Source of the DNA: Anaeromusa acidaminophila DSM 3853 | GTDB taxonomy: Bacteria > Bacillota > Negativicutes > Anaeromusales > Anaeromusaceae | Reading direction: 5' to 3' | Assembly (NCBI RefSeq): GCF_000374545.1 | Contig: NZ_KB894595.1 | Span: 1 to 64,000, forward strand | Length of the DNA: 64,000 nt | In this document: in pieces, positions 7,327 to 59,041 of the stretch | Position numbering within the stretch: the first letter of the stretch is position 1 | How the letters are laid out: each line of letters begins with the position of its first letter | Notes under the pieces: generated by a model | The model's input: the letters and a program-made list of their open reading frames with translations, nothing else | What the model was told of the DNA's origin: nothing | Database searches by the model: none | Made by a program: the position numbers and the translations under genes

Positions 7327-8733
7327 TTAGGCGCACTCTTCTTCGACAACCGCAATGCTCTCGCGGTCTAGCGCATAGGTAAGGAAAAACGTACCTAAAC
7401 AGGCTAGCCATTCGAGATAAATCACATGCGGCAGGATGCGTACGGCCGGTACGGTCTGCCAGAGGACCAGAACGACGACGCCGGTGAGGATGGTGTTGAA
7501 AGCCGAATTTTTGCGGCAAAATCTGGGGGCGAACAGGGTGAACAGTACAATAACGCTGAAAGCCGCCATGAGGCTGAGGCCGATCATAAGCGTGCTGATA
7601 ATGCCGCTGATGGTCATGGCCAAGGTCAGTGTTAAAAGGCCTAAAAGGACAACCGCGCCTTTTGTGATGCGCAGGAAATTTTGCTCGCTTACATTAGGAT
7701 TGACGAATTTTTTATAGATATCCTGAGAAAACAAGGTGGCGGAGCTGAGCAGCAGGTTGCAGGCGGTAGAAACGTCGGCGGCCCAAAGGGCGGCCAGGGT
7801 AATACCTGCCAACACTGGGTCCAGGGACATAATGGCTTTCGGCAGCGCCAACGCAGGGCTGACATCAGGGAACATGGATTTCGCCATTACGCCCATGAGA
7901 GCGCTGACAAAGCCGATGGGGAGCATCATCAAGCCGCCGATAATGAAGCCGCGCTGAGCCGTGCGGACGTCTTTGGCGCCCAAGGAAATCTGGATGATGC
8001 TTTGCAGTGAAAGATTAACGGTGACAAGAACCACAATCCAGGTGATAATGCCCATAACGCCGACGCCGTCAAAAAAATCCATGTAGGGAACGTTTTGCGG
8101 CAACTGCAGTTGGAGCTTGTTCAAACCGCCGACCTGGCTGACGCCGACGATGGTAGCCAGGATAATACCGATGTATTTTAAACTGACGTTGAGGAGGTTG
8201 GAAAGGCTGGCGGACCACATGCCGCCGAGGGAGGTAATGCCGATAAATACAGCGGCGCTGGTCAGCATGCCTGTAGTCAAGGTGAAGACCTCCGGCATAA
8301 GGGCGCAGAGAATGCTGCCGCCGGCAATGTATTGTAAGGACATAACGACAAGCTGCACAATGATTTGGCAGGCAATGCCGGCGATCATGCCTTTTTTGTC
8401 ATAGTAGCGGCCTAAAAGTTCCGGGATAGTGGTAATGTTAAGCTCACGATATTTTTTGGCGACCAACAGTCCCATGACGATGGCGCCGATGCCCCAAGCA
8501 GTGGTGTACCAGCCGGCAGACAAGCCCACCTTGTAAGCTTGCTCGGCTACGCCGATAGTGGAAGCGCCGCCGACAGCTAAGCCGACGATAGAGACGGTAA
8601 TCAAGGGGGTCGTCAGCTTGCGGCCCGCTAAGACATAGTTCGTCGCCGAACCGGCGGAGCGGCGCTTGGCATAGTAGCTGATTGCGAATAAGAGCACAAT
8701 ATAAAGACAAACGATTAAAAAAGCAATATTCAT
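7327..8733 (-). CDS. Sodium:solute symporter (SSS) family permease
   Basis: 468 residues, almost all hydrophobic, with about 12-13 membrane segments. The N-terminus (MNIAFLIVCLYIVLLFAISY, then a short basic loop and NYVLAGRKL) and the GGASTIGVAEQAYKVGLSAGWY segment are typical of the SSS family (PanF/PutP-like), which couples solute uptake to sodium. The substrate cannot be read off. The start is ATG 8733, 8 nt after AGGAGG; an in-frame start at 8763 lacks a site. A T-box leader upstream ties expression to a charged tRNA, so an amino acid or its precursor is the likely cargo. Confidence 0.85.
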   Translation of the reverse strand: MNIAFLIVCLYIVLLFAISYYAKRRSAGSATNYVLAGRKLTTPLITVSIVGLAVGGASTIGVAEQAYKVGLSAGWYTTAWGIGAIVMGLLVAKKYRELNITTIPELLGRYYDKKGMIAGIACQIIVQLVVMSLQYIAGGSILCALMPEVFTLTTGMLTSAAVFIGITSLGGMWSASLSNLLNVSLKYIGIILATIVGVSQVGGLNKLQLQLPQNVPYMDFFDGVGVMGIITWIVVLVTVNLSLQSIIQISLGAKDVRTAQRGFIIGGLMMLPIGFVSALMGVMAKSMFPDVSPALALPKAIMSLDPVLAGITLAALWAADVSTACNLLLSSATLFSQDIYKKFVNPNVSEQNFLRITKGAVVLLGLLTLTLAMTISGIISTLMIGLSLMAAFSVIVLFTLFAPRFCRKNSAFNTILTGVVVLVLWQTVPAVRILPHVIYLEWLACLGTFFLTYALDRESIAVVEEECA

Positions 8734-8807
8734 AATTTCTACCTCCTGAAGTATCTTACCCATGAAAAAAGTATATGCTTTCTTTCAGGCTGGCCAGCAA
8801 ACTGAAA

Positions 8808-9113
8808 GAAAAAACCGCCCCTCTGATAGAGGGACGGTTGAAGCCGTGGTACCACCCAAATTGAATCTTGAGAAATAAAAAAGAGTCGTACCGAAGGGGC
8901 GACAATGCCGCGGTACCACCCTGTTTCAATCCGAAGATCTACTCATACGCCCGTAACGTGGGCTTTGCGGCACAGCCTACTTTGAGTTCAGCCTGCAGTT
9001 CCGAAAGGAACTTCATTTCGTTTGTTCATCTGGCTTGCACCAACCGCCAGCTCTCTGTATGACAAGGACGAAACTACTTTCTTTCATCATCACCAGTAAA
9101 CGCAATTCAATTG
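8808..9113 (-). promoter_or_regulatory. T-box riboswitch leader with two antiterminator/terminator modules
   Basis: On the minus strand the leader has a stem I distal part with the GGTTGGTGCAAGCC motif, a candidate specifier segment CTGAACTCAAAGTAGG (CTC, leucine, is the best guess), and then two T-box consensus sequences: GGGTGGTACCGCGG at 8922-8908 and GGGTGGTACCACGG at 8857-8844. The first is followed by a weak hairpin and T run. The second is followed by a perfect 12-bp GC-rich terminator (AACCGTCCCTCT with AGAGGGGCGGTT). A TTTCTTTCAG/CTGAAAGAAA hairpin (8779-8811) then precedes the symporter ribosome site. Uncharged tRNA should favour read-through. Confidence 0.85.
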
Positions 9114-19036: not shown

Positions 19037-19357
19037 CATCCTCGGAAAAATTTTATAAACAAAATGTGATGAAGGAACCTGTGCTTTTCGAAACCTGCTT
19101 CAGAGAGTCGGCGGTTGGTGCGAGTCGGCAGCAGCGTAAAAGTGCGAATCATTCCGGAACAGCAAGGCTGAAGCCTCTTGGAGGACTAGGCTGCGCCGGT
19201 CTCAGCTTCCTGCGGGAAGTGCAGTCGTTATTCTGCTAAGGTTGATGGACCTGATGAGAAACAGAGATAAACTCTGTAAAAGGGTGGTACCGTGAGAGCG
19301 ACGCCTCTTGCCCCTTTAAGCTGTCTAGCTTAAGGAGCAAGAGGCGTTTTTGTTTTT
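19037..19357 (+). promoter_or_regulatory. T-box riboswitch leader
   Basis: The stem I distal part has CAGAGAGTCGG and GGTTGGTGCGAGTC; the GCTTCAG/CTGAAGC stem next to the specifier loop covaries with GTTTCAG/CTGAAAC in the T-box at 30862. The T-box sequence AGGGTGGTACCGTG is at 19281-19294, followed by a strong terminator (CGCCTCTTGC, 19302, with GCAAGAGGCG, 19337-19346, then T run). The specifier triplet is uncertain; CTC right after the stem is the first candidate. The next gene downstream is the sigma-54 activator at 19597. Confidence 0.85.
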
Positions 19358-30861: not shown

Positions 30862-31178
30862 TGGCAAAACTGGAAAATTTCATACGTAAATGTAATGAGG
30901 GAGAACTCTTGCTTTTATGTCGTTTCAGAGAACCGGCGGGTGGTGCGAGCCGGCAACGAAGGAAACAGGATCGTCGCTCCTGAACAGCAACGCTGAAACC
31001 GCAGGGAGTAGGCCGCGCCGGTCTCGGCTTTCTTTAGAAAGTGCAGCCGTTAACCTGCTAGGGTTGTTGGACCCGATGAGAGACAGATGATTTCATCTGT
31101 GAAAAAGGGTGGTACCGCGAGAGTAGCCTCTTGCCCCTTTGAGTCTTGGACTTGAAGGAGGCAGGAGGCTTTTTGTTT
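30862..31178 (+). promoter_or_regulatory. T-box riboswitch leader of the first BASS transporter
   Basis: Stem I has GTTTCAG...CTGAAAC next to the specifier loop and GGTGGTGCGAGCCGG distally. T-box AGGGTGGTACCGCG at 31106-31119 and a terminator formed by AGCCTCTTGCC with the GGCAGGAGGCT segment and five T. The triplet best aligned with the second BASS leader is GCA at 31001-31003 (alanine); ACC is an alternative. It extends to about 40 bp before the transporter gene. Confidence 0.85.
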
Positions 31179-41349: not shown

Positions 41350-43119
41350 ATGTCAATTGTTCAAGGATTTTTGCATTACTATAAACCGTATAAACGTTTG
41401 TTTTACACCGATATGATTTGCGCCGTTCTGGTTTCGATGATTGATTTGGTATTTCCTCAGGCGCTCAATTATTTGACTAAAAATTTTTTGGTGACTCAGA
41501 CTGGAGAGTTTGTAGCTATCGTTGGCTATCTTGGCGCGGGTATGCTGGGATTGTATTTGCTACGTTATGGTTGTCAGTATTATATTACGACCTGGGGCCA
41601 TGTGATGGGGGCTCGTATGGAAAGCGATATGCGTCAGGACTTATTCGAGCAATTCCAGCGCCTCTCTTTTTCCTACTATGACCGTAACAACACCGGTGAG
41701 ATGATGTCCAAGGTGGTTTCCGATCTTTTTGATATTTCTGAGCTGGCCCATCATGGTCCGGAAAATATTTTTATTTCCTGCTTGAAACTGGCTGGCTCCT
41801 TTGTGTTGCTGTTGTTTATCCATGTGCCGCTGACGCTGCTATTGTTTGCGGTGGCCTTAAGTATGACCTGGTTTAGCTACTATCAAAACAAAAAAATGAA
41901 GGTCATTTTTATGGAGAATCGTCAGCGTATCGCGGCGGTTAACTCGCAAGTACAGGACAGCCTTGCGGGTATCCGGGTGATTAAATCATTTGCCAACGAA
42001 GAGCTGGAAAGAGAGAAATTTCGCCGCAGCAATGAAGAGTTTTTGGATTCCAAGGAACGCGTTTACAAGCTGATGGGCCGCTTTCACGCAGGCAATGGCT
42101 TGTTGGAAGGCGTACTATATGTGTTGGTTTTGGTGAGCGGCAGCTATTTTGTGTCTCAAGGCCAACTGGCGGCCACTGATTTGGCTGTATATGCCTTGTA
42201 CATTGCGATTTTTCTTAACCCGTTGGATGTGTTGATTCTCTTTTCGGAACAGTTTCAGAAAGGGTACGCCGGTTTTCGGCGCTTTGCCGAGGTGATGCAG
42301 ATGCGTCCAGACATCGTGGATCGGGAGCCGGCGATGGAAGTAGAGACGGTGCAGGGATGTTTGGAATATGAAAATGTCTCCTTTGCGTATGAAGACAATC
42401 CGGCAGTATTGCATCAGGTGAACTTTACGGTGGAAGCGGGACGGACGGTGGCGCTGGTGGGCCCTTCCGGCGGCGGGAAAACGACGATTTGTTCGCTCTT
42501 GCCCCGCTTTTATGATGTAACTGAGGGGGCTATCCGTATTGACGGACATGACGTACGGGATTGGAAATTAGCTTCCTTGCGCAGCGCCATTGGCTTGGTG
42601 CAGCAAGATGTATATTTGTTTGCGGGCACGATCCGAGACAATATTTTGTATGGACGCCCGGATGCCACGGACAGCGAAGTCATAGCCGCCGCTAAGCAGG
42701 CCAACATTCATGAATTTATTACTTCTTTGGAAAACGGTTATGATACGTATGTAGGAGAGCGAGGCGTGCGTCTTTCAGGCGGCCAGAAGCAGCGCATTTC
42801 TATTGCCAGGGTGTTTTTGAAAAATCCGGCCATTTTGATTTTGGATGAGGCAACTTCGGCGCTGGACAATGAGAGCGAGCGTCATATTCAAAAATCGCTG
42901 GAGCAGCTGGCGAAGAATCGTACCACCTTGATTATCGCGCATCGCTTGAGTACCATTCGCCATGCGGATGAAATTGTTGTCATTAACGAGGGCCGTATCC
43001 AAGAACGGGGCACTCATGGTGAGCTGCTGGCGAAAGACGGTTTGTACGCTCGTTACTACGGTATGCAATTTGCAGGGATGGACGTCGAAAATGACATGAA
43101 TGCAGCAACTTCTTCTTGA
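41350..43119 (+). CDS. ABC exporter, fused membrane and ATPase domains (MsbA/MdlB-like)
   Basis: 589 residues. Six-helix exporter domain (about 1-310, with YYDRNNTGEMMSKVVSDL and GIRVIKSFANE coupling segment) and an ATPase with Walker A VGPSGGGKTT, Q-loop VQQDVYLFAGTIRDNI, signature LSGGQKQRISIARV, Walker B ILILDEATSALD and H-loop IAHRLSTI. It likely works as a homodimer exporting lipids or drugs; the substrate is unknown. ATG 41350 is 9 nt from GGAG, whereas ATG 41341 abuts it. Its TGA stop overlaps the -35 hexamer of the next unit. Confidence 0.9.
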   Translation: MSIVQGFLHYYKPYKRLFYTDMICAVLVSMIDLVFPQALNYLTKNFLVTQTGEFVAIVGYLGAGMLGLYLLRYGCQYYITTWGHVMGARMESDMRQDLFEQFQRLSFSYYDRNNTGEMMSKVVSDLFDISELAHHGPENIFISCLKLAGSFVLLLFIHVPLTLLLFAVALSMTWFSYYQNKKMKVIFMENRQRIAAVNSQVQDSLAGIRVIKSFANEELEREKFRRSNEEFLDSKERVYKLMGRFHAGNGLLEGVLYVLVLVSGSYFVSQGQLAATDLAVYALYIAIFLNPLDVLILFSEQFQKGYAGFRRFAEVMQMRPDIVDREPAMEVETVQGCLEYENVSFAYEDNPAVLHQVNFTVEAGRTVALVGPSGGGKTTICSLLPRFYDVTEGAIRIDGHDVRDWKLASLRSAIGLVQQDVYLFAGTIRDNILYGRPDATDSEVIAAAKQANIHEFITSLENGYDTYVGERGVRLSGGQKQRISIARVFLKNPAILILDEATSALDNESERHIQKSLEQLAKNRTTLIIAHRLSTIRHADEIVVINEGRIQERGTHGELLAKDGLYARYYGMQFAGMDVENDMNAATSS

Positions 43120-43149
43120 CTTTTGTAACAAGGTGTACTAACCTCTAAA

Positions 43150-43434
43150 ACAAGTGAATGATTTGGCGAGGAACAGGAAGAGTACATATGCTGTCTTTGG
43201 CATAGCGAGCTGGTGACCGGGTGACCGGAGGTGAGATGACCAGCCCAATAGGCATAGGGAATGGGCCTGTGAGCCGTCCACCGAAATCAGAGTAGGCTGG
43301 ACCGGGAGCTCCCGTTAACGAGCTAGGATATCGGCGGCAGCCTGTATTTGAAAAAAGGAAAGGCATAGCCTTTCAAACTAGGGTGGTACCGCGAACCATT
43401 TCGCCCCTTTCGGGTGGAATGGTTTTTCTTTTTT
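43150..43434 (+). promoter_or_regulatory. First of two tandem T-box leaders before the PTS operon
   Basis: Stem I 5' part GGAAGAGTACATATGC with the AGTA motif; distal GGTGAGATGACCAGCC; candidate specifier segment CCGAAATCAGAGTAGG (ATC, isoleucine, is the best reading); T-box AGGGTGGTACCGCG at 43380-43393; terminator AACCATTTCGCCC / GGGTGGAATGGTT, a 13-bp stem followed by a long T run. A TTGACT (43116) and weak -10 lie upstream, overlapping the ABC gene's stop. Confidence 0.85.
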
Positions 43435-43436
43435 TT

Positions 43437-43600
43437 GAGCTGCTGACTTGCTTGTATCACGCGCCAGAATCGTTCTTTTTCCGTCTGGCTGCGGCAGAGC
43501 AACCTTGAAAGAGCGCCGCTATTCCTGCGGTCACTCTTACTTGTCAGGCGGAAAAATTACTTCTTCTGGCGGTGCACTCGCGAAGCCAACAGCTCTCTGG
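43437..43600. repeat. Nested-palindrome intergenic element, copy 3
   Basis: Between the two T-boxes. Outer arms GAGCTG (43437) with CAGCTC (43590) and CACGCGCCAGAA with TTCTGGCGGTG; middle arms CTTTTTCCGTCTG (about 43475) with CAGGCGGAAAAA (43545-43556); apical AGAGCGCCGCTAT (43510-43522) identical to copy 2. It separates the two regulatory leaders. Confidence 0.55.
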
Positions 43601-43669
43601 AAGTACGAAAGGGACAACGGAGAGCAGTGCGCTCAGAGTAAAACAGAGAATATAAATGGAGCTGACAAT

Positions 43670-43957
43670 GGCTTCATGAAAAAGCGAAGAACGGGAAGAG
43701 TACATGCAGCACTCTCGGGTGCAGCGAGTCGGCGGCCGGGCGACCGGAGGTGAGATGGCCGATGCTGAGAGCGTATGGAATGGCCCCGGGAGCTGTCTGC
43801 CGAAGGAGACTGTAGGCCAGACCGGACGCCGCCGTTAACAGGCTAGGGTATCGGTGTAGGCCCGTATCCGAAGAAGGAAAGGCGCAGCCTTTCAAATCAG
43901 GGTGGTACCGCGAGTCAATTCGCCCCTTACAAGGGGAGTGAATTGGCTTTTTTATTT
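43670..43957 (+). promoter_or_regulatory. Second tandem T-box leader before the PTS operon
   Basis: Same architecture as the leader at 43150: GGGAAGAGTACATGC, distal GGTGAGATGGCCGATG, specifier segment CCGAAGGAGACTGTAGG (GGA or GAC, undecided), T-box AGGGTGGTACCGCG at 43898-43912, terminator AGTCAATTCGCCCC / GGGGAGTGAATTGGCT with TTTTTT. No convincing promoter of its own was seen, so it may act in series with the first one. Confidence 0.85.
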
Positions 43958-43984: not shown

Positions 43985-44464
43985 ATGAGTGGAATTGTTT
44001 TATTTCGGATTGACGAGCGTTTAGTGCACGGGCAGGTGGTGACAGCGTGGCTGGGGCATACACAGGCGGAGGAAATTTTGGTAGTGGATGATGCAACAGC
44101 CCAAGATAGTTTGTTACGCTCGATTGTAAAAATGGCAGTGCCGCCGCAGGTCGAGGTTCAAATTGCTGCACTGGAGGAGGCGGAGGAATTGCTGGCGGAG
44201 CTGGAGCTGGAAGCAAGGGTGATGGTGATAGTGAAGCATCCGGAAAGCGCGCGAAAAATACTGGAACAGTATCAAGGAATGGCTTTAGAAATCAATATGG
44301 GTAACGCCGGTATGGCTGCGGGACGGAGCAAATTATCGTCCAGCGTCTATTTGACGGAAGCCGAGGTAGAAGAGCTGCACCGCATTGAATCTTTGGGGCA
44401 TGCAGTATATCTGCAGACAGTTCCGGGGACGGAGCGGAAACTATTGGCCGAGGCGTTGCTATGA
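43985..44464 (+). CDS. PTS mannose/fructose/sorbose-family IIB component
   Basis: 159 residues with the IIB phosphorylation site RIDERLVHGQV, His15, and downstream VVDDATAQD and KHPESARKIL segments. IIB receives phosphate from IIA and passes it to the sugar held by IIC/IID. AGGCTGATAAAG gives a weak ribosome site. It is the first gene after the tandem T-boxes and overlaps the acetyltransferase gene in ATGA. Confidence 0.9.
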   Translation: MSGIVLFRIDERLVHGQVVTAWLGHTQAEEILVVDDATAQDSLLRSIVKMAVPPQVEVQIAALEEAEELLAELELEARVMVIVKHPESARKILEQYQGMALEINMGNAGMAAGRSKLSSSVYLTEAEVEELHRIESLGHAVYLQTVPGTERKLLAEALL

Positions 44465-44952
44465 GTGGAAATAAGGAAGACGTTTCTGTAAAAACAGCGG
44501 ATAAGTCAGATGCTGAAAATATTTTGATTTTGCAAAAAGAAGCGTATGCAAGCGAGGCGGCGTTGTATGGAAAATGGGATATTGAGCCCTTGCGCCAAAC
44601 CTTGGAAGAATTGATAGCGGAATGGGAGGAGCAAGTAATATTGAAGGCTTGCGCAGGAGGCGTGTTGGTAGGGAGTGTTCGCGGTCGGGTGCAGGGAGAG
44701 ACTTGCTATGTGGGAAAATTGATGGTGAAACCAGAGCTGCAGAACCAGGGTGTTGGCAAGAAGTTGTTGCTGGAGTTGGAAAAACAGTTTCCTGCGGCAA
44801 GGCGGTTTGAATTGTTTACAGGAGAAAAAAGTCTAAAAAATTTGCATGTCTACGAAAAGTTGGGATATTGTCCAGAGCGCACGCAAATAGTTGACGATAA
44901 CTTAACCCTTGTTTTTTTGGCGAAATACCGGAAAACAGAACGGAAAGAATGA
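44461..44952 (+). CDS. GNAT-family N-acetyltransferase inside the PTS operon
   Basis: 163 residues: VKTADKSDAENILILQKEAY opening, GSVRGRVQGETCYVGKLMV strands, the acetyl-CoA loop NQGVGKKLLLELE and the C-terminal NLHVYEKLGYC motif. Translationally coupled to IIB and 13 bp before IIC, so its substrate may be related to the PTS cargo, perhaps an amino sugar or amino-acid conjugate; this is inference from position alone. Confidence 0.82.
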   Translation: MSGNKEDVSVKTADKSDAENILILQKEAYASEAALYGKWDIEPLRQTLEELIAEWEEQVILKACAGGVLVGSVRGRVQGETCYVGKLMVKPELQNQGVGKKLLLELEKQFPAARRFELFTGEKSLKNLHVYEKLGYCPERTQIVDDNLTLVFLAKYRKTERKE

Positions 44953-44965
44953 GGAGGCGAAAAAT

Positions 44966-45730
44966 TTGTTTGTAGAAGCGGTATTGATTGGGCTATTGAC
45001 TTGGTTGGCCGGAGGACTTCTTTCATTATCTCTGAGCTGGACTCTCTACATGGGAGCGCCGCTGATGGGCGGCTTGCTGGTAGGGCTTATTCTAGGAGAT
45101 GTATCGTATGGGGTACAGACTGGGGCTATGATTCAAATGGCCTATATTGGCTATATTGCTACCGGGGCGACATTGCCGGCGGATTTGGCGCTTGCAGGGT
45201 ATTTGGCAGTGGCTTTGACCATGATTTCCGGGCAGCCGCCGAGTGCAGGCATTACCTTTGCGGTGGCCCTGGGATTGTTGGGCTTGTTTATTCGCCAGGC
45301 GAAGCTGACGATAAACTCTCTTTGGGTACATAAAGCGGATGGTTATGCGGAAAAGGGAGATACTAGGGGGATTATCCTTATGAATATTGGCGCATCCCAA
45401 CTGGTTCCCTTTGCACTGTACTTTATCCCTACTTTTTTAGCGATCTATGTGGGCGGGGATTATTTGAAACAGCTGCTGGACGCCTTGCCGAAGGAAGTGG
45501 TCGACGGGCTGCGTGTGACAGGAGGGTTGTTGTCAGCGTTGGGTTTAGGGTTGCTGTTGAAATATCTTTCTCGGGGATATTTGCTACCCTTTTTGTTTTT
45601 GGGTTTTGCCATGGCAGCCTATGGCAAACTGGATATTTTGGCAGCGAGCATTATCGGTACAGCATTGGCCTTTTTGCATGTGACCTATCGGTATGGGATT
45701 GGAGGAGAGAAAAGTGGAAAACGACGTTAA
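44966..45730 (+). CDS. PTS mannose-family IIC membrane component
   Basis: 254 residues, hydrophobic, with the IIC (EII-Sor) pattern: GGLLSLSLSWTLYMGAPLMG, GVQTGAMIQMAYIGYIATGATLPAD and GLRVTGGLLSALGLGLLLKY. The start is TTG 44966 (MFVEAVLIGLL), 8 nt after GAGGAGG; reading from 44909 would overlap the acetyltransferase gene without a site. It forms the sugar channel with IID. Confidence 0.88.
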   Translation: MFVEAVLIGLLTWLAGGLLSLSLSWTLYMGAPLMGGLLVGLILGDVSYGVQTGAMIQMAYIGYIATGATLPADLALAGYLAVALTMISGQPPSAGITFAVALGLLGLFIRQAKLTINSLWVHKADGYAEKGDTRGIILMNIGASQLVPFALYFIPTFLAIYVGGDYLKQLLDALPKEVVDGLRVTGGLLSALGLGLLLKYLSRGYLLPFLFLGFAMAAYGKLDILAASIIGTALAFLHVTYRYGIGGEKSGKRR

Positions 45731-46541
45731 AGATAAGGTGGTTCTCACCAAAGGAGATTTGGTTAAATCGTTTTTATGCTGGCATAGTTTTTGTCAGTCT
45801 TGCCACAATTATGAACGTATGCAAGCGTTGGGGTTTACGCATGCAATGATTCCCATTCTGACGCGCTTATATAAAGATAAGGCAGATATTGCCGCCGGTC
45901 TTAAGCGGCATTTGCAGTTTTTTAATACAGAGCCAAACATTGGTTCCGTGGTGCCGGGCATTATGGCGGCATTGGAGGAACAGCGCGCCAACGGCGCGGA
46001 ATTGTCTGATGAGACGATTAATAGTCTGAAAACCGGCTTGATGGGGCCGTTAGCCGGCGTAGGTGATACGGTGACCCAAGGGTTGGTGAAAACCATTTTA
46101 CTGGCTATTGCGGTAGACATGGCAGCGCAAGGATCGGTGCTGGGGCCTCTTTTCTTTTTCTTCTGCTTTACAACCTATACTATGGGCATTGGCTATTTTC
46201 TTTATATGCAAGGGTATCGCTTGGGGCGGGACGCCTTATCGAAAATGCTGGAAGGCGACTTGGTCAGCCGGATTACGGAAGGGTTAACCGTGTTGGGCTT
46301 GATTGTCGTTGGGGCTTTGGCGGCGACGCGCATTCCTGTAAGTACAGGCATTACTTTTGAAATCGGTAAAACGGCAGTGAAGCTGCAAACCATGCTGAAC
46401 AGCATTATGCCTGGTTTGTTAAGCTTGTTGACATTACTGCTGGTTTGGTATTTGCTGCAAAAAGGCAAGTCTGTGCTGTGGATTTTAGGTTTGATGTTTG
46501 TTGTCGGTTTTGGCGGGGCGTATTTCAAAATTTTAGTATGA
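45714..46541 (+). CDS. PTS mannose-family IID membrane component
   Basis: 275 residues with IID motifs: LVKSFLCWHSFCQSCHNYERMQ, GFTHAMIPILTRLY, LKRHLQFFNTEPNIGSVVPGI (first part), LMGPLAGVGDTVTQG and several C-terminal helices. The start is GTG 45714, 8 nt after GGAGGAG, overlapping the IIC end by 17 bp. It completes the membrane complex with IIC. Confidence 0.9.
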   Translation: MENDVKDKVVLTKGDLVKSFLCWHSFCQSCHNYERMQALGFTHAMIPILTRLYKDKADIAAGLKRHLQFFNTEPNIGSVVPGIMAALEEQRANGAELSDETINSLKTGLMGPLAGVGDTVTQGLVKTILLAIAVDMAAQGSVLGPLFFFFCFTTYTMGIGYFLYMQGYRLGRDALSKMLEGDLVSRITEGLTVLGLIVVGALAATRIPVSTGITFEIGKTAVKLQTMLNSIMPGLLSLLTLLLVWYLLQKGKSVLWILGLMFVVGFGGAYFKILV

Positions 46542-46563: not shown

Positions 46564-46959
46564 TTGATAGGAGTTATAGTAGCCAGTCACGGCGGATTGT
46601 GTGGAGAACTTTTAAAGACGGCGGAGATGATTTTAGGACCGACGGTACAAACGGGGGCGGCGTCTTTGGCGGCAGGGACGTCGCTGTCGGATTATGCGGC
46701 GGCATTGCGGCAGGCTGTGGATGAAGTAAAACAAAAAGCTGGCGTATTAGTTCTGGTCGACTTAGCTGGTGGCACGCCCTGCAATGTCGCCGCCGTGCTA
46801 GCGGCGCAAAGCGAAGAAATAAAGGTCGTGACAGGCGTCAATCTGCCCATGCTTTTGGAAGTGCTTAGTCGTCGTGAAGGACTTTCGCTAGAGGAACTAA
46901 CAGAGAGGGCAGTGGCTGCCGGTCTGGGCGGCGTTTGTTGCGTAAATGCAAAGAATTAA
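46564..46959 (+). CDS. PTS mannose-family IIA component
   Basis: 131 residues of the EIIA-Man fold with the phospho-accepting histidine in IVASHGGLCGE (His9), VLVLVDLAGGTPCNVA and GVNLPMLLEVLSRR. It takes phosphate from HPr. The start is TTG 46564 after GGGGAGG. It ends the operon before a strong terminator. No sugar-metabolising enzyme is linked, so the imported compound is unknown. Confidence 0.9.
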   Translation: MIGVIVASHGGLCGELLKTAEMILGPTVQTGAASLAAGTSLSDYAAALRQAVDEVKQKAGVLVLVDLAGGTPCNVAAVLAAQSEEIKVVTGVNLPMLLEVLSRREGLSLEELTERAVAAGLGGVCCVNAKN

Positions 46960-46965
46960 AGTGAA

Positions 46966-47013
46966 AAAAGGAGCCAACTGTTCCTGCTTGCGCAAGAACA
47001 GTTGGCTCCTTTT
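46966..47013. terminator. Strong terminator after the PTS operon
   Basis: A perfect 18-bp stem AAAAGGAGCCAACTGTTC / GAACAGTTGGCTCCTTTT lies between the PTS operon and the convergent cupin gene and can serve both strands. Confidence 0.85.
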
Positions 47014-58682: not shown

Positions 58683-59041
58683 CATAGAATTTGTAAACGA
58701 GTATAGTAATAATCGTTACAAAGACATGCCTTAGAAAATTAAATAGAAAAACAAATGTAACGAGGGAGAGCGTTGGTCAATCAAAATCGTTTCAGAGAGC
58801 CGGTGGTTGGTGCGAATCGGTAGCGAGGATTGGGCAAAAATCACTCCTGAACAGCAACGCTGAAATGCAAAAAGTAAGCCGCGCCGGCCTCAGCTCCGCA
58901 AGGAGTGCAACCGTTATCTTGCTAAGGTTGTTAGACCTGATGAGAAGCAGACATATTGTCTGTAAAAAGGGTGGTACCGCAGGAGTTTAGCTTCCTGCCC
59001 CTTTCAGTCCTTGGACTTGAAAGGGGCAGGGGGCTTTTTTG
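58679..59041 (+). promoter_or_regulatory. Sigma-A promoter and T-box leader of the second BASS transporter
   Basis: TTGACA (58679-58684), 17-nt spacer and TATAGT (58702-58707), then a T-box with CAGAGAGCCGG, GGTTGGTGCGAATCGG, and the CTGAAAT/GTTTCAG stem. The candidate specifier GCA at 58867-58869 matches the first BASS leader (TGC overlaps it as an alternative). T-box AGGGTGGTACCGC at 58968-58980; terminator TGCCCCTTT with AAAGGGGCA and TTTTTT. Confidence 0.85.

Follow-up and report, generated by a model that had tools for sequence, protein, structure and literature searches.

T-boxes normally control amino-acid genes, and the locus described here raises the question of why two of them should stand in series before the genes of a sugar-type carrier, and which tRNA they would sense. 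The locus lies in a stretch of 64,000 nucleotides from Anaeromusa acidaminophila DSM 3853 that was analysed as a whole (hereafter the window). Its features are the following:

43116..43144, + strand: candidate promoter TTGACT-17-TAACCT with a weak -10, read by eye
43160..43411, + strand: T-box leader 1, predicted Trp type (specifier UGG at 43262-43264; bulge UGGU at 43384-43387)
43393..43437, + strand: terminator of leader 1 with T tract (fold -20.6 kcal/mol; scan match 43393-43425)
43439..43672, + strand: spacer between the leaders, unconstrained (low identity to relatives)
43678..43930, + strand: T-box leader 2, predicted Trp type (specifier UGG at 43781-43783; bulge UGGU at 43903-43906)
43912..43957, + strand: terminator of leader 2 with T tract (fold -22.5 kcal/mol)
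43985..44464, + strand: PTS IIB, mannose/sorbose family (PF03830, 141 bits)
44461..44952, + strand: GNAT acetyltransferase, accessory (PF00583)
44966..45730, + strand: PTS IIC (PF03609, 213 bits), with TTG at 44966, preceded by GAGGAGG, as the probable start
45693..46541, + strand: PTS IID (PF03613, 317 bits), start uncertain
46564..46959, + strand: PTS IIA (PF03610, 90 bits)
46966..47013, no strand assigned: long inverted repeat at the operon end, a terminator-like site of 20 pairs

Two complete T-boxes precede a mannose-family PTS operon

Both leaders match the RF00230 model over its full length (Infernal, model positions 1-219), the first with 118.6 bits (E 1.2e-25) and the second with 98.4 bits (E 2e-20), and both exceed the gathering cut-off of 93 bits. 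In the window as a whole four T-boxes score above this cut-off, two of them being the tandem pair before the PTS genes. Each leader has its own terminator hairpin and T tract, and in both the 5' strand of the hairpin is shared with the antiterminator in the predicted folds, so that the two structures compete. Stem I shows changes on both sides of 10 of its 28 pairs, with 99.5% of cells paired, a level reached by none of 500 shuffles and by slid controls at 48% at most; the structure was drawn from the tested sequences themselves and is therefore biased in its favour against the slid controls. The two T-boxes are real, far above chance, and to this extent the first-pass annotation, which had described two complete leaders in series, was right.

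The candidate promoter stretch is 97-99% identical across the four genomes of the genus, and the promoter scan did not pick it up. A search of the spacer for a third, decayed T-box gave no Rfam match at E<=1. One stretch of the spacer, TGGCGGTGCACTCGCGAAGCCAACAGCTCTCTGG, is reminiscent of an inverted or rearranged distal T-box Stem I.

Downstream, IIA, IIB, IIC and IID all belong to the mannose/sorbose family according to Pfam and make up a complete permease, as expected from the earlier description of a mannose-family PTS operon behind the T-boxes. IIC, for which a longer open frame begins at 44909, is related to the solved ManY. All subunits score below every NCBIfam subfamily cut-off, and the substrate is therefore not readable from family membership. 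A convergent cupin-like gene lies beyond the inverted repeat that ends the operon. Elsewhere in the genome, away from the PTS operon, genes for an 87-aa HPr-like and a 571-aa EI-like protein stand side by side, with a PEP-utilizers_C match, and adjoin DhaL- and DhaM-like genes.

The acetyltransferase gene that had been reported as embedded in the operon is there, but not in every genome: it stands between IIB and IIC in G000 and G002 and is absent from G001 and G003, where IIC starts 16 bases after IIB. Given this absence in two of the four species, the conserved unit is the set of four PTS genes and not a five-gene cassette; we rejected GNAT as a defining part of the operon and regard it as an accessory gene that offers no evidence for the cargo. 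Homologues of 42-49% identity are scattered in other genomes. The 49% homologue, in an actinobacterial metagenome-assembled genome, has an unrelated context in which no PTS was recognised.

Both leaders are predicted to sense tRNA-Trp

The specifier position was calibrated on 24 T-boxes of the same genome. In leaders of recognisable genes (pheS, UUC; tyrS, UAC; valS, GUC; glyQ, GGC), a single base separates the specifier from the closing helix after it, and on the other side the S-turn GAA either adjoins the specifier or lies one base away. Under this one-base rule the PTS leaders, GAA-UGG-G-CCUG in box 1 and GAA-UGG-C-CCCG in box 2, carry the specifier UGG. The same arrangement is found in the Trp leaders of trpD (GAA-UGG-U-CCC), trpBA (GAA-UGG-A-CUUG) and an ECF-type transporter (GAA-UGG-A-CCUG), and GAAUGG is kept in all five leaders in all four genomes of the genus. 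The tRNA-Trp gene of the genome has the anticodon CCA and the discriminator G73, with which the UGGU bulge of both PTS leaders can pair by G.U wobble, not by Watson-Crick pairing; a U in the bulge against G73 occurs in 46% of the Trp T-boxes in TBDB (PMC7778990). Specifier position and kinship together indicate that both PTS leaders are Trp-specific.

This assignment departs from the first-pass annotation, which had read different specifiers, ATC and GGA or GAC, and had proposed an AND gate on two tRNAs. Two complete leaders standing in series would suit a gate that senses tRNA-Ile together with tRNA-Gly or tRNA-Asp, but none of these codons occupies the specifier position: ATC is found in CCGAAATCAGAGTAGG, in the Stem III region; the bulge, UGGA in the glyQ leader of this genome, is UGGU in both PTS leaders; and the trpD, trpB and ECF leaders have UGG as specifier just as the two PTS leaders do. 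Calibration on the trp leaders gives UGG (Trp) twice, and when these leaders are compared across the four genomes the different specifiers are ruled out. The locus appears to have two sensors for one tRNA, and a gate on two different tRNAs is extremely improbable. Just as hard to credit is a shift of both specifiers by one base, which would make them glycine codons (GGG and GGC/GGG). Most leaders of the genome do have one base between GAA and the specifier, a spacing with which the PTS leaders would read GGN; yet UGG follows when a single base is left before the closing helix, and U73, which is normal for tRNA-Gly, would not pair with the UGGU bulge. The glycine reading was rejected because the same frame turns the trpD, trpB and ECF leaders into Gly leaders too (GGU, GGA and GGA).

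The tandem is conserved in the genus and akin to the trpD leader

Both T-boxes stand before IIB in all four genomes of the genus, which is the only genus of the host's order in our genome collection and thus supplies few independent witnesses. Box 1 of the window shares 92-94% identity with its counterparts in the other genomes, and box 2 shares 94-96%; the values are 55-58% for the spacer when gaps are counted (74-78% without gaps), 84-87% for IIB and 67-72% for the third codon positions of IIB. Because the boxes are far more conserved than either the spacer or the IIB third positions, both leaders are under selection, and the constraint is strong.

A tree of the T-boxes of the genome groups the two PTS leaders with the trpD leader in one clade (support 0.998), within which no order of branching is resolved. 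Their pairwise identity is 67-73%, and the distal part of Stem I is of a special type in all three (AGCGAG, GACCGG-loop-ACCGGAGGUG).

The trp leaders and other T-boxes of the genome offer several further observations. In the trpD-F-C-E-G operon, the complete Trp T-box is succeeded by another antiterminator-terminator module, which lacks Stem I (AGAGGGTGGCACCACGAG...); this partial tandem (downstream of G000:C15:64890) is kept in at least three congeners. A DAHP-synthase-like gene (G000:C4, after 147743) has a complete Phe-type T-box and then a T-box-like antiterminator, CAGGGTGGTACCGCG, possibly another partial tandem. The Trp T-box of the ECF-type transporter (G000:C1:144225-144477, - strand; specifier UGG, bulge UGGC) is kept in all four genomes and precedes an ECF-type S component-like gene with an ABC ATPase gene next to it, a transporter that is likely to be a Trp importer. 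Within the window, the T-boxes at 58751-59005, 30886-31141 and 19060-19318 group together in the tree, have the putative specifiers AUC, GUC and AUC (Ile, Val and Ile by the one-base rule), and precede two bile-acid:sodium-symporter-like genes and a PAS-domain regulator-like gene. A further T-box at 8892-9099 (- strand) with the specifier UUC (Phe) lies ahead of a sodium:solute-symporter-like gene (7327-8763, - strand).

A proposed steep response to tryptophan starvation

Under the mechanism that we propose, transcription would start just upstream of 43160, and the polymerase would meet two consecutive complete Trp T-boxes, each binding tRNA-Trp through its UGG specifier. When this tRNA is uncharged, its GCCA end would pair with the UGGU bulge, the antiterminator would form and RNA polymerase would pass; with charged tRNA-Trp, the terminator would form instead. 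Since both boxes are predicted to sense one tRNA, and hence to be passed on the same signal, they would not gate two signals but multiply two probabilities, and in vivo read-through would be roughly the product of the two: very low basal expression, with a steep rise as the charging of tRNA-Trp falls. The output would be a mannose-family PTS permease, presumably importing a compound that is useful when tryptophan is short.

Since the tandem switches are kept in all four species, tryptophan starvation probably induces the transporter, and we consider it quite likely that the two same-specificity boxes in series make this induction tight and steep. The earlier proposal that a sugar-type carrier is under tRNA control can thus fairly be upheld, given that the tandem arrangement is conserved and constrained.

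Cargo of the permease and origin of its control

In the phylum sample, the IIC proteins most closely related to the present one have 63, 53 and 48% identity, and IID relatives 58-49%. The closest relatives of both that were found lie in LevR-type operons of other genomes of the phylum (four loci), which differ from the present operon in gene order (LevR-type regulator-IIA-IIB-IIC-IID-BtpA, as opposed to IIB-(GNAT)-IIC-IID-IIA) and in control: they have their own activator and a BtpA-like gene without a T-box, whereas here there are T-boxes and no BtpA (the LevR-like regulator and the BtpA-like gene were named by eye). No relocated BtpA partner was found within the genus. At related PTS operons elsewhere, neither the 13 loci from the phylum (9-10.5 kb) nor the 20 from the class gave a T-box; the latter were taken with flanks of 1.5 kb, so that some operon starts were possibly missed.

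The first-pass annotation had suggested an amino-acid conjugate or amino sugar as cargo, and the Trp specificity of the leaders hints at a Trp-related one. In its broadest form, this would make the PTS a dedicated route of tryptophan scavenging, gated by the two Trp T-boxes, in which the compound imported and phosphorylated contains Trp or indole (such as a glycosyl-Trp or a precursor of the indole-glycerol type). We regard such a route as unlikely, and we know of no description of Trp- or indole-bearing compounds as a class of PTS cargo. The narrower idea that the cargo is a glycated tryptophan (an Amadori compound), taken up for scavenging in the way of the Gfr system of Salmonella, is more doubtful still. 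Trp control would fit a Trp conjugate, and the part of the Gfr literature considered here describes a mannose-family PTS for fructoselysine and glucoselysine, that is, one with an amino-acid link (PMC12675984). The same source gives the Gfr operon the deglycases GfrE and GfrF and, as far as that account goes, reports no T-box, whereas the present operon has T-boxes and contains no SIS-type phospho-fructosamine deglycase, and no such enzyme could be recognised in the genome's set of SIS proteins, named by eye as GlmS, KdsD, MurQ, GmhA and RpiR-type regulators. With SIS proteins only of these other types, an Amadori-type pathway would have to run without a visible deglycase, so that glycated tryptophan is a guess.

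Of a different kind is the possibility that the control was captured: an ordinary sugar or amino-sugar PTS would have been placed under a pair of T-boxes that formerly belonged to a trp-related operon, it would serve in tryptophan starvation solely as a general stress or carbon response, and the cargo would be unrelated to tryptophan. The kinship of the PTS leaders with the trpD leader and the LevR-type regulation of the nearest PTS relatives, which do without T-boxes, speak for such a capture. So does the fact that trp operons in Bacillota typically have tandem T-boxes (PMC12452182), where two complete T-boxes of the same Trp specificity likewise stand in series, each with a terminator. In those operons, by contrast, the target is Trp synthesis genes, here a mannose-family PTS. 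The retention of both leaders in all four species, under strong constraint, speaks against this reading, and it implies that the control has a use at present, however it arose. On balance we find capture plausible but somewhat doubtful.

A PTS under probable T-box control among known systems

T-boxes on amino-acid transporters are common (PMC2494555), and the PTS operon resembles them as a transporter under tRNA control. The transporter families named in that survey are ABC, APC, LIVCS, MFS, NSS, NhaC and the like, with PTS named once, in a reference on ptsGHI. In the part of the literature that was searched, we found no report of a PTS under T-box control; T-boxes and mannose-family PTS are both of known kinds, and it is their combination that we did not find described.

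T-box specificities are a means of assigning substrates to transporters. Two Trp T-boxes conserved ahead of a PTS would mean either that the PTS has a Trp-related substrate or that amino-acid control can extend to sugar-type import. The mode of action of tandem T-boxes has been called unknown (PMC7583486), and with a full tandem before the PTS genes, a partial tandem before trpD and single Trp T-boxes before trpB and the ECF-type transporter, the genus offers a natural set for the function of tandem T-boxes.
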